DNA of 64,000 nucleotides from Edaphobacter sp. 4G125. GTDB taxonomy: Bacteria > Acidobacteriota > Terriglobia > Terriglobales > Acidobacteriaceae. The stretch lies in assembly GCF_014274685.1 (NCBI RefSeq), contig NZ_CP060393.1, forward strand, positions 1,671,501-1,735,500, read 5' to 3'. Under the pieces are notes generated by a model that was not told the DNA's origin, made no database searches, and worked only from the letters and a program-made list of their open reading frames with translations. Position 1 is the first letter of the stretch. Every line of letters begins with the position of its first letter. Made by a program: the position numbers and the translations under genes. Shown in pieces: positions 38,356-59,815 of this stretch.

Positions 38356-40440
38356 TTAAGCTATTTGAATCTCGCGCAATATTGCATAGAGAGAGGTTGT
38401 GAGGCGTTTTGTTGTTACGTCGTTTCCCTGCGTCTCTGATGCGGGTCTATCGAGGCGAAGCGTTGGGTTCAGTGGAGAGAATGCTTCTCCCCCCTCTATT
38501 TTTTGTGCCAGCTGATACAGGGTTTGCCTGGACAGCGCCATCGCATGGATGGCAAGAGCATCAGGCGCATTCTCTTCCGATGCAATGGCGTGATGGATGA
38601 GACCTGTCTTAATGAGTAGGAGCGCGCGGAGTCGAGGCAGATATCTTCTAGCCTGTTGCAGTACGATCTCTTCCGACGGTGCCTTGGGATATGGCTCAAA
38701 CAGGGAGGCATCGAGCATCGACCATATCTTGTCGAAATTACGGATCACGTCTCGTGTGTTGCTTTCCAGAATCTTGTCTTGAATTGAAGGATCGGCAAGT
38801 TGCGATTTGGAGAGATCAGCGATCTGCCGAATCGTTGCCGTCAACGTATCACGAATCGATTCGGTGGCCGATTTATCCCAGAAGTGATCAAAGATGAGCC
38901 ACATAGCGCCAATGCCCAGCATGATGCCAAGAACCGTATCGCGTGCAGGAATCAGAGACGAAGTGAGGGAAAATCTTCCTAGATTGACGAGTTCATAGGC
39001 AAATACAATCTGCACTCCAGCATATGCAATCCGTGGCCCGGAGGTTGCGACCCAGGCGCCGATAGAGATCATTGCAGCGAAAAGGAACGTATAGCTTAGG
39101 ATGGAATCAATCTGTGGAAGAATCGTGACCTGTGCGGCAAAGCCAATCACGCAGGCGCCAATTACGATACCGCCGAAGCGCATTAATTGTTTGTGTCTGG
39201 CTGCGCCGGTTACGGGAAGTGCAGTCAGGATACAAGTCGCAATCGATGCATTTAATCCAGTCCATCCCACGCTCATATAAAGCATGTAACAGGCGATTGC
39301 ACTCAATGTTCCACGGACGGCGAACTTAAAATGTTTTCTTCCTGAAAAGGCATCAGATACAAAAAAATGAAAGTTTTGCCTTCGTGGCGAAGCAATTGGA
39401 CGATTCTCACCGCGGTCCCACATGGTCTGGGAAAAGCTCTCGGAAAGCAGTTCTACGGTACGCTCGATCTCCACAAGGAGGGGGTTATGAACCAGGTGTT
39501 CTTCTTGGAGATCGATCCACTCGGCAGCCTGATCGTTCGCAAGGCTCTCCTTCAATGTTCTGAGTTTTTGAATCAGGACATGGCACAGGTTTTCATCGGC
39601 GGGAGAGGAGGCATACTTGTTGTCGACAAGTGGCAGGCAAAGATCGACAAGCCTGCCCATCAGAATAACAGCGGTCAAAAGGCGTTGCTCGGTTTCGAAT
39701 GAGTATTCGGCATGATTGATATAAGCTCGTAGCGTCTCGATGCCGCGCGTTGAATAGCGGCGAAGATCGCGAGCCAGGTTGCCGCTGTCAGCCCACCCGG
39801 AGATATAGTTTTGAAGAGTTTTCTCCACAATCGCGATTCTCTCCTCAATCCCTTCAATGACTGCTCCAGAGCGATGTGCACGTGAAAACACAAACTCGAT
39901 CAGCACGGTCACAAGGCATCCGAGAAGGATCGCGAGAAGCATGAACAGCGTTTGCCGCAGCCGTAGGTCAGCCGTTACGGCCTGATCCCAGATGCCGATT
40001 GTGTTTGTAATAAAAAGTCCCAGAGAAAGCGCTGCTTCATACACTCGCATAATGCTCACCAGGTAGAAGACAGCAAACAGACTTACCCAAACCCACATCA
40101 GATGAAGGAAAGGTGAACCGGTCGACAGCATCGCTCCGAGAACGACTTCGATCGTTCCTAGCGTGCAGGCTCCCGCGATCCACGCTGCCGATCGCTTGGT
40201 CGAGCGGAAACTATCGCGGGAGATGAGAAGAGGCGAATAGGCTCCTAAAACGCCTCCCGGAATGCGGAAGACGATAATGCAGAACATGACGAAAGTGCAC
40301 GCCAGCACCATTCGTAAAACCAGGATCGGGCGCCCTGGATACCAATTCAACTCGCTCCGTAGAAGTCGATAGAAGGAGGCAGCCCGAGATTCTCCAGTGG
40401 CTTTGGGGTGGAGTTCCATCGAGGCGGCTTCCCCATTCAT
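38356..40440 (-). CDS. FUSC-family inner-membrane exporter subunit (MdtO-like)
   Basis: A 694-residue protein with two sets of about six membrane helices, each followed by a cytoplasmic helical domain, the layout of FUSC/aromatic acid exporter proteins such as AaeB and MdtO. The first set begins RPILVLRMVLACTFVMFCII and the second FKFAVRGTLSAIACYMLYMS followed by WTGLNASIATCILTALPVTG. The length fits MdtO (about 680). It works with the HlyD-type adaptor whose gene overlaps its start by 4 bp, and probably with the TolC-type factor in the same operon. The substrate is probably an aromatic acid or drug; the sequence does not tell which. Confidence 0.88.
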   Translation of the reverse strand: MNGEAASMELHPKATGESRAASFYRLLRSELNWYPGRPILVLRMVLACTFVMFCIIVFRIPGGVLGAYSPLLISRDSFRSTKRSAAWIAGACTLGTIEVVLGAMLSTGSPFLHLMWVWVSLFAVFYLVSIMRVYEAALSLGLFITNTIGIWDQAVTADLRLRQTLFMLLAILLGCLVTVLIEFVFSRAHRSGAVIEGIEERIAIVEKTLQNYISGWADSGNLARDLRRYSTRGIETLRAYINHAEYSFETEQRLLTAVILMGRLVDLCLPLVDNKYASSPADENLCHVLIQKLRTLKESLANDQAAEWIDLQEEHLVHNPLLVEIERTVELLSESFSQTMWDRGENRPIASPRRQNFHFFVSDAFSGRKHFKFAVRGTLSAIACYMLYMSVGWTGLNASIATCILTALPVTGAARHKQLMRFGGIVIGACVIGFAAQVTILPQIDSILSYTFLFAAMISIGAWVATSGPRIAYAGVQIVFAYELVNLGRFSLTSSLIPARDTVLGIMLGIGAMWLIFDHFWDKSATESIRDTLTATIRQIADLSKSQLADPSIQDKILESNTRDVIRNFDKIWSMLDASLFEPYPKAPSEEIVLQQARRYLPRLRALLLIKTGLIHHAIASEENAPDALAIHAMALSRQTLYQLAQKIEGGEAFSPLNPTLRLDRPASETQGNDVTTKRLTTSLYAILREIQIA

Positions 40441-57578: not shown

Positions 57579-58373
57579 TCAGTGTGTGAGCGAGATCTGC
57601 ACCGTATCGCCACGCGTTACACGATGGCCTGCGAGCGGGATCTGCGCTACGACGATCCCGGGAGTCATAGGCATCATGGGGGCCGACGCACCCCCCGTTG
57701 GAGCTGACTGGGGCGTTGTAGGAGTTACGTCTTCTGCGCTTACAATCCGCAGCCCTGCGGCTCCTGCCCGTGCATATGCTCCTGAAATGGTAAGGCCGAC
57801 GAGCGAAGGCATCACGTACGCGGCGGTTGTGTCTTCTGTCGAATCATTCAGCAAAATACTGACGCGCGGACGGTCGACGCCTTCAGCTCCAGGAGCAGGA
57901 CTCTGCGCCAAGACCACGCCTGCCGAGCCTGGCATCGCAACATGGCCAACGGTTCCTAACTCAAGGCCCAGTCTCCGCAGATTAATGGACGCGGCACGTT
58001 CGCCTTCGCCTTGCAGATTGGGGATTGAAACCTGTTGTGTACCCAGGCTTTCGGTGACTCGTACAGGCCACTGTCGCCGAACCGTCGCACCCACAACTGG
58101 ATACTGTGCCAGCACTTGTCCTGCGGGGATATCGGGGGAATAGAAGCGATTCTCAAGCTGTAAGCGCAAACCCATCGAGCTGGTCTTTCGGCTGGCCTCT
58201 GCAATCGTCATATGGGTAAGTTGCGGGACCTTCACCTCGTGCCCATGAATTGCCAGACGCATTGCCAAAAAGGCAGAGATCATCGCGACCGCGACCATCG
58301 CCATGGCTCCCAGCACGATATTGAAGAAGCGCCGTACTGCGCTCCAGCCTATAAAACGAACCCGCACCTTCAT
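57579..58373 (-). CDS. Membrane-anchored PASTA-domain protein
   Basis: A 264-residue protein with an N-terminal membrane helix (FNIVLGAMAMVAVAMISAFL) and about three PASTA repeats (VKVPQLTHMTIAEASRKTSS; VSIPNLQGEGERAASINLRR; VMPSLVGLTISGAYARAGAA). PASTA domains bind peptidoglycan fragments and normally sit on Ser/Thr kinases or penicillin-binding proteins. This one has neither kinase nor transpeptidase, so it may be a cell-wall sensor or structural adaptor. A Pro/Thr/Ser-rich insertion lies in the third repeat. It is the last gene of aroB-ubiE-CDF-PASTA, overlapping the CDF gene by 4 bp. Confidence 0.88.
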   Translation of the reverse strand: MKVRVRFIGWSAVRRFFNIVLGAMAMVAVAMISAFLAMRLAIHGHEVKVPQLTHMTIAEASRKTSSMGLRLQLENRFYSPDIPAGQVLAQYPVVGATVRRQWPVRVTESLGTQQVSIPNLQGEGERAASINLRRLGLELGTVGHVAMPGSAGVVLAQSPAPGAEGVDRPRVSILLNDSTEDTTAAYVMPSLVGLTISGAYARAGAAGLRIVSAEDVTPTTPQSAPTGGASAPMMPMTPGIVVAQIPLAGHRVTRGDTVQISLTH

Positions 58374-59815
58374 CGCTTATTGTCCGTCGCCGGTTCCGGG
58401 TGAATCAGCAGGCGATCCACCTCGGGTGCATCCAGTTTAAATGCTCCCTCCAGGGCCGTGATAATCGCATGGACCTTCGCCATCGGAAGATCATCCGGCA
58501 ATGTGCAGTGACAATTCACCTGCAGGTGTGCTCCCATCCGAGTCACGATAACGTCATGGATGTCGAGAATCTCAGGAAAGGTTGCTGCTGCCCGGCGGAG
58601 CCTTACCTCGAGCTGCCGATCGCGTTCCTGCGACTCCGGTTGTTCAATCGTTGCAGGCTCACTCTCGATGTGAGTCAGGATAGAGGTCACATCCGGAATC
58701 TCGCGCCGAATCTCCGCTTCCAGTTGGGTAGCCAGTTCATGCGCCTGTTGCAGATACATATTCTCATCGACTTCGAGATGCTGTTCGACCTGAAGATGTC
58801 CGCCTACACGCTGCACAGTTACGTCATGGATGGTCAGGTTCATGCGCGCCGCAACGGCACGAATGCGGTCGTGAATACTCTCCGTACCTGGGGCCATCGG
58901 AACGGTATGGACAACAACATCGGCTCGTGGGAGATGCCGCTTAACGACGGCGGTAGCCTCCCGTGTGATTTGTTCTGTTCGTTGAAAGGTCAGGTTCCTT
59001 GCTAGTCCAAGCGTCAGATCCGCGAAGGTGTCCGAACCGGATTGCCGCGTCCGCAGGCGGTTGACGGCTAGTACTCCATTGATCGCCTTCAGGTCGTTCT
59101 CAAACTCCTTTCTCATCGCCTCGCGGCTCTCTTTCGGAGTTGCGTCCAGAAGAGCATCAATCGTTCGCCGCACCAGCTTCCAGGTCACGTAGAGGATGAT
59201 TCCTGAGACGATCAACGCTGCGATCGGATCGGCCAGTTCAAGAGTGCGAATGTTCCAGTGCGTGCCAGTGAAGGCCGCAGCCAGACCAATCAGCACGGCC
59301 AGCGAAGACCAGATATCCGTACCGAAGTGAATTGCATCGGCCTCGAGCGCCTGACTTGCCGATTCGTTGGCGATCTTATGAAGTTTGCGCGAGCGGGTGT
59401 AGTCCACTAGGATGGCCAGAATCAGCACCGCAAATGGCCAGATTGAGGGTGTGAGAGAAAGTCGTTCCCTAAATGTAATTCGGCGGATAGCTTCGGTCAC
59501 AATCCAGATGCACGAACCCAGCATCAACACGCATTCGATAAATGCTGAAAGGCTTTCTACCTTGCCATGGCCGTAGTTATGAGTGTCGTCGGCAGGACGG
59601 TCGGCCATTTGGACGGAGAAAAGAGTAATTCCTGCTGCAACCAGATCCACTGTCGAGTGGGCGGCCTCCGAAAGCATACCCAGCGATCCGGTGAGGAGTC
59701 CGGTAACGAACTTCAGCACCGTAATCCCTAGCGCTGCCAGCACAGAAAACAATGCGGCTGAGCGCTTCTCTCTAGAAGTCGGACGCGGTTTTTCGGACAT
59801 GGCCGTATAGCTCAT
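58370..59815 (-). CDS. Cation diffusion facilitator with three C-terminal domains
   Basis: A 481-residue inner-membrane metal/proton antiporter. The six-helix CDF domain carries the site-A motifs SEAAHSTVD in helix 2 and AIHFGTD in helix 5, the H-D/H-D set usual in zinc or cobalt exporters. The C-terminal cytoplasmic ferredoxin-like domain appears three times: about 230-295 (FADLTLGLARN), about 315-380 (IHDVTVQRVGGHLQVEQHLE) and about 400-470 (IHDVIVTRMGAHLQVNCHCT), the last two being clear repeats. Common CDFs have about 300 residues with one such domain. It follows ubiE by 38 bp and precedes the PASTA gene by a 4-bp overlap. Confidence 0.92.
   Translation of the reverse strand: MSYTAMSEKPRPTSREKRSAALFSVLAALGITVLKFVTGLLTGSLGMLSEAAHSTVDLVAAGITLFSVQMADRPADDTHNYGHGKVESLSAFIECVLMLGSCIWIVTEAIRRITFRERLSLTPSIWPFAVLILAILVDYTRSRKLHKIANESASQALEADAIHFGTDIWSSLAVLIGLAAAFTGTHWNIRTLELADPIAALIVSGIILYVTWKLVRRTIDALLDATPKESREAMRKEFENDLKAINGVLAVNRLRTRQSGSDTFADLTLGLARNLTFQRTEQITREATAVVKRHLPRADVVVHTVPMAPGTESIHDRIRAVAARMNLTIHDVTVQRVGGHLQVEQHLEVDENMYLQQAHELATQLEAEIRREIPDVTSILTHIESEPATIEQPESQERDRQLEVRLRRAAATFPEILDIHDVIVTRMGAHLQVNCHCTLPDDLPMAKVHAIITALEGAFKLDAPEVDRLLIHPEPATDNKR

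Follow-up and report, generated by a model that had tools for sequence, protein, structure and literature searches.

The CDF transporter encoded in the 64,000-nucleotide stretch of Edaphobacter sp. 4G125 DNA analysed here (the window) carries three tandem tail domains, each with a predicted ferredoxin-like fold. The protein is no oddity: it belongs, as an ordinary member, to an established subfamily, and the triple-domain architecture is old and conserved. Judged by its ligand residues, the metal site known from the tail of YiiP appears to be absent from the first domain in the protein's close group and present in the added ones, and the first domain of more distant triple-domain proteins seems to keep part of it. 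It is considered moderately probable that the protein is an HD-HD zinc-type proton antiporter in which a metal-blind domain 1 acts as a dimer and coupling adaptor and metal is bound on the two distal domains.

The open reading frame lies exactly where the first-pass annotation had placed it, with the length of 481 residues given there, and is read from the minus strand; the plus-strand frame over the same bases contains several stops. Pfam recognises Cation_efflux (E 4.3e-45) followed by ZT_dimer in three stretches (E 1.1e-35), which agrees with the earlier description of a CDF with three tandem C-terminal domains. In a profile search of the whole genome the three stretches score 53.3, 50.4 and 36.1 bits (cut-off 26.7), and the one other place with a ZT_dimer is a 318-residue open frame with a single such domain. 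Both repeat peptides quoted in the annotation occur in the protein (residues 329-343; residues 419-433). Aligned with each other, domains 2 and 3 share 38% identity across 74 residues, with an E-value of 4e-15 for this one comparison. The diverged upstream repeat that had been proposed corresponds to domain 1, which has no meaningful BLASTP similarity to domain 2 or 3 and is identified via profile and fold. The three-domain layout is far beyond chance, because it is kept across the phylum. Architecture, predicted fold, conservation, ligand pattern and transport-site residues are all computed.

Table 1. Features of the CDF gene and its neighbour in window coordinates (69/69, present in all triple-domain proteins compared).
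Feature	Position	Strand	Basis
PASTA-domain protein, neighbour outside the system	57579..58373	-	Pfam (three PASTA stretches)
Whole CDF gene, 481 residues, ATG to TGA	58370..59815	-	ORF list, translation
Transporter domain (Cation_efflux), residues 22-223, six predicted helices	59147..59752	-	Pfam and AlphaFold2 model
Tail domain 1, residues 228-307	58895..59134	-	Pfam, YiiP alignment, predicted fold
Tail domain 2, residues 314-385	58661..58876	-	Ligand motifs, predicted fold
Tail domain 3, residues 393-475	58391..58639	-	Ligand motifs, predicted fold
Site A, first half: H53-x3-D57 (H where YiiP has D45)	59645..59659	-	YiiP alignment; 69/69
Site A, second half: H163-x3-D167	59315..59329	-	YiiP alignment; 69/69
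Site B equivalent: D76, H79, H83	59567..59590	-	YiiP alignment; 69/69

Membership of the CDF family is borne out by the profiles PF01545 (154.4 bits against 26.6) and TIGR01297 (255.7 against 82.35), by the site A quartet on helices 2 and 5 (H53, D57, H163 and D167), which reads HD-HD in 69 of 69 triple-domain proteins, and by the ferredoxin-like cytoplasmic tail domain, here present in three copies. The scores for more closely defined proteins fall short of their cut-offs: 189.9 bits against 420 for the FieF/YiiP equivalog (NF050169), 175.4 against 500 for MntE (NF052621), and 151.3 and 150.9 against 350 for MamM and MamB. The protein also differs from the FieF/YiiP equivalog in the membrane-proximal tail domain, where the complete binuclear site C is absent (N, T, E, H and V at the five positions), and in site A, where the equivalog has DD-HD. 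The site B equivalent aligns with what we take to be the site B ligands of YiiP, D68, H71 and H75. An HD-HD site A is found in CDF clades shown to move mainly zinc; the same source reports that site A correlates poorly with the metal moved, and HD-HD occurs there also in a clade of mostly iron transporters (excerpts of PMC5703985). HD-HD, usual for zinc clades, is an indication and not proof; Zn2+/H+ antiport is the most likely activity of the protein.

The fold of the tail was taken from an AlphaFold2 model of the monomer built on 13 aligned sequences (mean pLDDT 77.5, pTM 0.48). All three tail domains have the order helix-strand-strand-helix-strand within the limits given in Table 1. When compared by VIA-align, with 1000 PDB chains aligned, domain 1 (230-311) matches the MamB tail 6qfj_B (Z 12.5, rmsd 2.0, 82 aligned), domain 2 (312-388) the MamM tail 3w5y_A (Z 12.5, rmsd 1.7, 77 aligned) and domain 3 (395-481) the Thermotoga tail 6vda (Z 13.7, rmsd 1.5, 86 aligned). 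Whole YiiP and ZnT chains are matched by the transporter domain together with domain 1. Each domain therefore has the right element order and resembles solved CDF tails, and the ferredoxin-like fold on which the first-pass annotation depended holds in the model. The linker between domains 2 and 3 is short, the strand ending at residue 385 and the next helix starting from 393. In 23 proteins cut into domains the order of the tail domains is fixed and their lengths are near-constant (76-85 residues).

The distribution of the protein was followed through matches spanning its whole length, defined as those starting by residue 20 and ending at 475 or later. Among the matches listed, such a match is present in 58 of 297 Acidobacteriota genomes, comprising all 31 genomes of the window's family and 27 of the 266 elsewhere, in 12 other families; in the other family of the same class, neither of two genomes has a spanning match among those listed. 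Two of the 58 (G113 and G231) have one stop inside the match. In one further genome (G081) the match is reported only to residue 384, yet the open reading frame has three domains by a custom HMM. In a genome collection, 11 of 13 matches span the protein and all 11 are named Acidobacteriota, as Edaphobacter, Granulicella, Acidobacteriaceae, Acidobacteriales or Acidobacteria; the other two, from Malaciobacter and Arcobacter, are CDFs with one tail domain. Of 863 matching plasmid records, two cover 80% or more of the query, both from Azospirillum (Alphaproteobacteria); none of 32 matching phage records does so, and none of 17 loci on IMG/VR contigs matched past residue 369. Domains of the ZT_dimer type were counted in 124 distinct open reading frames, a sample enriched by choice, with an HMM built from these same domains; 70 frames have three, two have two, 51 have one and one has none. 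Pfam independently counts three in both P0001 and L118.

Partial matches were also observed in phage, IMG/VR and plasmid records. LR756501.1 and LR756503.1, both 735 kb long and recorded as uncultured phages, match CDF residues 14-306 at 40.6% identity (654787-655647), an extent that would be expected of a single-domain CDF, and the putatively viral IMG/VR contigs L120-L131 carry similar proteins. On plasmid NZ_CP063363.1 of Xanthobacter dioxanivorans, positions 38935-39270 match the domain 2-3 region at 34.8% identity over 64% of a 172-residue query. The protein encoded there, annotated only as a cation transporter dimerization domain-containing protein, is perhaps a tail without a transporter.

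The tail site of YiiP is binuclear, with two Zn per protomer; Asp285 is bridging, and of the four histidines one protomer supplies three (His232, His248 and His283) and its partner His261 (parts of PMC6465983). In Shewanella YiiP, mutation of H263 or H234 isolated the two ions of the site (excerpt of PMC10617992); we infer that these residues equal E. coli H261 and H232. Glutamate at the Asp285 position is a known ligand, as E352 of ZnT8 (excerpt of PMC8000985). For domain 1 the five ligand positions follow from direct alignment with YiiP (PDB 2qfi match, E 1.8e-27, residues 19-307), which has no gaps from H232 to D285, and for domains 2 and 3 they were assigned via the same motifs as in YiiP. 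Domain 1 has N252, T268, E281, H303 and V305 at these positions and is left with one ligand. All five are kept in domain 2 (H330, H346, H359, H382 and E384) and in domain 3 (H420, H436, H449, H472 and E474).

This pattern is uniform in the 40 close relatives, which consist of P0001, L001-L011 and sampled family members, with L011 just outside the family in the tree. Domains 2 and 3 both read HHHHE in all 40, and domain 1 has one of the five ligands in 32 and none in eight. The remaining 29 triple-domain proteins are more distant (27 from the same phylum and two from Azospirillum), and 16 of them keep three of the five ligands in domain 1, the equivalents of H261, H283 and D/E285; for this reason domain 1 may safely be called metal-blind only in the window's close group. 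Of all 69 triple-domain proteins, 68 have at least four ligands in domain 2, 63 have them in domain 3 and none has them in domain 1, and the H232 and H248 equivalents of domain 1 are never His. One protein (L079) has only two of five ligands in domain 2. In the f4 subclade domain 3 is degenerate and domain 2 is complete in most; the two-domain member L110 of the same subclade has kept domain 1 and has a degenerate second domain. Single-domain CDFs, counted after leaving out two fragments of L134 and the two-domain proteins L108 and L110, have at least four ligands in 43 of 50 cases and exactly HHHH plus D/E in 29. Seven of the 50 score below four, so ligand loss is not strictly tied to the extra domains. 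Domain 1 is still under constraint, with R255 in 69/69 triple-domain proteins and D266 in 40/40 close relatives.

These counts bear on the proposal of the first-pass annotation that three metal-sensing domains may change the stoichiometry or threshold of transport. Three tandem domains with the right predicted fold are present, and that part of the proposal stands. The part that lacks support as worded is that all three sense metal: domain 1 has no equivalents of H232 and H248 and fewer than four ligands in all 69 triple-domain proteins, and at most one of the five in every close relative. The partial sets in domain 1 of the 16 distant proteins speak for the proposal, and three equivalent sensors are considered highly improbable. 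Given the ligand loss in domain 1, the likely change would be in where metal is bound and in the number of ions, not simply three sensors for one.

For the metal, the dimer, the occupancy of the sites and gating, we infer the following arrangement. The protein would be a dimeric CDF exporter of the cytoplasmic membrane with an ordinary transporter domain, most likely a Zn2+/H+ antiporter, whose tail would form a stack of three ferredoxin-like domains. Next to the membrane, domain 1 would have given up metal binding and would serve in dimerisation and as a coupling adaptor. Domains 2 and 3 each retain in full the set of five residues with which YiiP binds two zinc ions per protomer at its dimer interface; if both sites were filled as in YiiP, the tail of the dimer could hold up to eight ions against four, by arithmetic from YiiP. 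Once filled with metal, the distal domains would be clamped to each other, and domain 1 would relay this signal to the transporter. Several CDFs are listed in a review as activated when their tail binds metal (parts of PMC10710835). Shewanella YiiP without site C forms domain-swapped dimers of dimers (excerpt of PMC10617992), so the site helps to hold the YiiP dimer.

The distal sites could also be arranged differently, with domains 2 and 3 of one chain forming an intramolecular pseudo-dimer and a binuclear-type site in cis that does not bridge protomers. They are the only pair of tail domains with clear pairwise similarity, they keep all five ligands, including the equivalent of the partner-supplied H261 of YiiP, and they are separated by the short linker described above. 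A cis pair would not easily tolerate the state of the f4 subclade, where domain 3 is degenerate and most members have a complete domain 2, and such an arrangement is considered unlikely. The distal domains might instead serve as a buffer that increases metal locally, or as a loading arm that delivers it to the transporter, with no gating. The fold is metallochaperone-like (excerpt of PMC7170241) and the ligands are conserved; in the close group, domain 3 adds C435 and C437, which flank the ligand H436 and are each present in 39 of the 40 close relatives. The fixed order and near-constant lengths of the domains suggest a fixed assembly instead, and a buffering role is regarded as rather improbable.

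The origin of the extra domains was approached with two trees. A tree of 85 single domains, for which 23 triple-domain proteins were cut into domains, is weak, with 79 columns. The copies of domain 1 form one group in it (95/95), and those of domain 2 stay together in 94% of the 200 bootstrap replicates. The copies of domain 3 need two changes; forks that the tree leaves open lie among them, as does the second CDF of the genome on its long branch. Domains 2 and 3 split from domain 1 and the single tails with a support of only 75/77 over these 79 columns. The second tree (55 rows) was made from the transporter domain plus domain 1. One of its clades (98/93) takes in the 26 selected triples, both doubles and also four single-domain proteins; six more singles, each with four of five ligands, lie just outside. 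Three of the nested singles have degenerate sites (L107, PVHHA; L109, RTHHE; L128, SVHHE) and the fourth, L127, has a complete site (HHHHE) and a weak placement (82/64). For the bacterial nested singles L107 and L109, no remnant of domains 2-3 is present in the 1701 bases fetched for each, and the double L108 ends at a contig end.

The simplest reading of these trees would be one gain followed by a few later losses, and several separate gains of tail domains may be the alternative. It is tentatively proposed, at somewhat less than even confidence, that the protein belongs to an ancient CDF subfamily with a displaced sensor: two domains would have been added once, and the original tail domain would then have lost half its zinc site everywhere and nearly all of it in the close group, which would leave it as a mechanical link that connects the transport core with a zinc clamp of two layers. 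The apparent losses, four single-domain and two double-domain proteins inside the triple clade (one of the doubles being L108), would also suit neutral accretion, in which the extra domains are tolerated and have no regulatory role. Set against this are the ligands of domains 2 and 3, invariant in 40/40 close relatives, and the conservation of these domains there, with a mean identity to the window's protein of 0.667 and 0.70 as against 0.577 for domain 1; accretion of this kind is given very little probability.

On the minus strand of the window the genes presumably run aroB, ubiE, CDF and PASTA protein, with nadB and rsmB flanking; the names ubiE, aroB, nadB, rsmB, fmt and araC are our own recognition by sequence. 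Ten of the 11 loci from close relatives (L001-L010) have ubiE and aroB ahead of the CDF gene and the PASTA gene behind it; in L011 no neighbour matched. The ATG of the PASTA gene overlaps the CDF stop by 4 bases, which suggests translational coupling, and in five of the ten loci (L002-L006) the tblastn match to the PASTA protein likewise starts at the last base of the CDF gene. The wider context was taken from 20 further regions and the Azospirillum locus, excluding open reading frames that lie over the CDF gene; of the 20, 18 are from outside the window's family (including the two-domain L153 and the single-domain L154) and two, L155 and L156, are from within it. No neighbour family recurs in more than three of these 21 loci. 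The Azospirillum MgtC gene is matched in none of the 20 regions, and the Azospirillum ABC ATPase has 30-34% matches to genes in two of them. Gene context was dropped as a functional clue, the neighbours in the close group not being metal genes and no family recurring elsewhere beyond three of 21 loci.

The Azospirillum locus has a context of its own. On plasmid pAB510c of Azospirillum sp. B510 (L118, 2892-8140) the triple-domain CDF gene overlaps an MgtC/SapB gene and comes after genes for two ABC components, a permease and an ATPase that has an AAA_assoc_C domain, and the gene order is the same in Azospirillum sp. TSA2s (L119). It is possible that this locus is a metal-handling operon.

The tail of CDF proteins may be a metal-driven switch or mainly a holder of the dimer, and in YiiP both roles lie in one domain and are hard to separate. 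In the window's protein evolution seems to have split them, with a site-less domain at the membrane and two site-bearing domains further out, which makes the choice between switch and scaffold testable through domains 2-3 with domain 1 untouched. The protein would thus offer a natural separation of dimer scaffold and metal site.

These proteins are already known in that they are routinely annotated as CDF transporters, and architectures of this type are probably listed in public domain databases. In the literature searched on the architecture, the group and the tail metal site, a collection with few subscription papers, no account of CDFs with tandem tail domains was found. Among characterised systems, YiiP/FieF of E. 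coli and Shewanella shares with the window's protein the six-helix transporter domain, sites A and B and the fold of the tail domain. YiiP has a single tail domain with the binuclear site C, whereas here the site is lost in domain 1 and found on two further domains, and site A is DD-HD in YiiP and HD-HD here. When the domain 2-3 stretch is compared by sequence with the PDB, the tail of the Thermotoga maritima CDF (6vda, 2zzt) scores best, by virtue of domain 2 (E 1.1e-5), and 6vda is also the best fold match of domain 3 among the aligned chains; this tail was solved as one domain only. The tails of MamM and MamB match domains 1 and 2 in fold; these are magnetosome proteins, and the window's protein lies under both of their cut-offs. 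The plasmid CDFs of Azospirillum B510 and TSA2s (WP_012977263.1 and WP_109153197.1) are matched over 97% of the length of the window's protein at 35-37% identity. They adjoin MgtC/SapB and ABC-transporter genes, and the B510 protein has three ZT_dimer stretches by Pfam.
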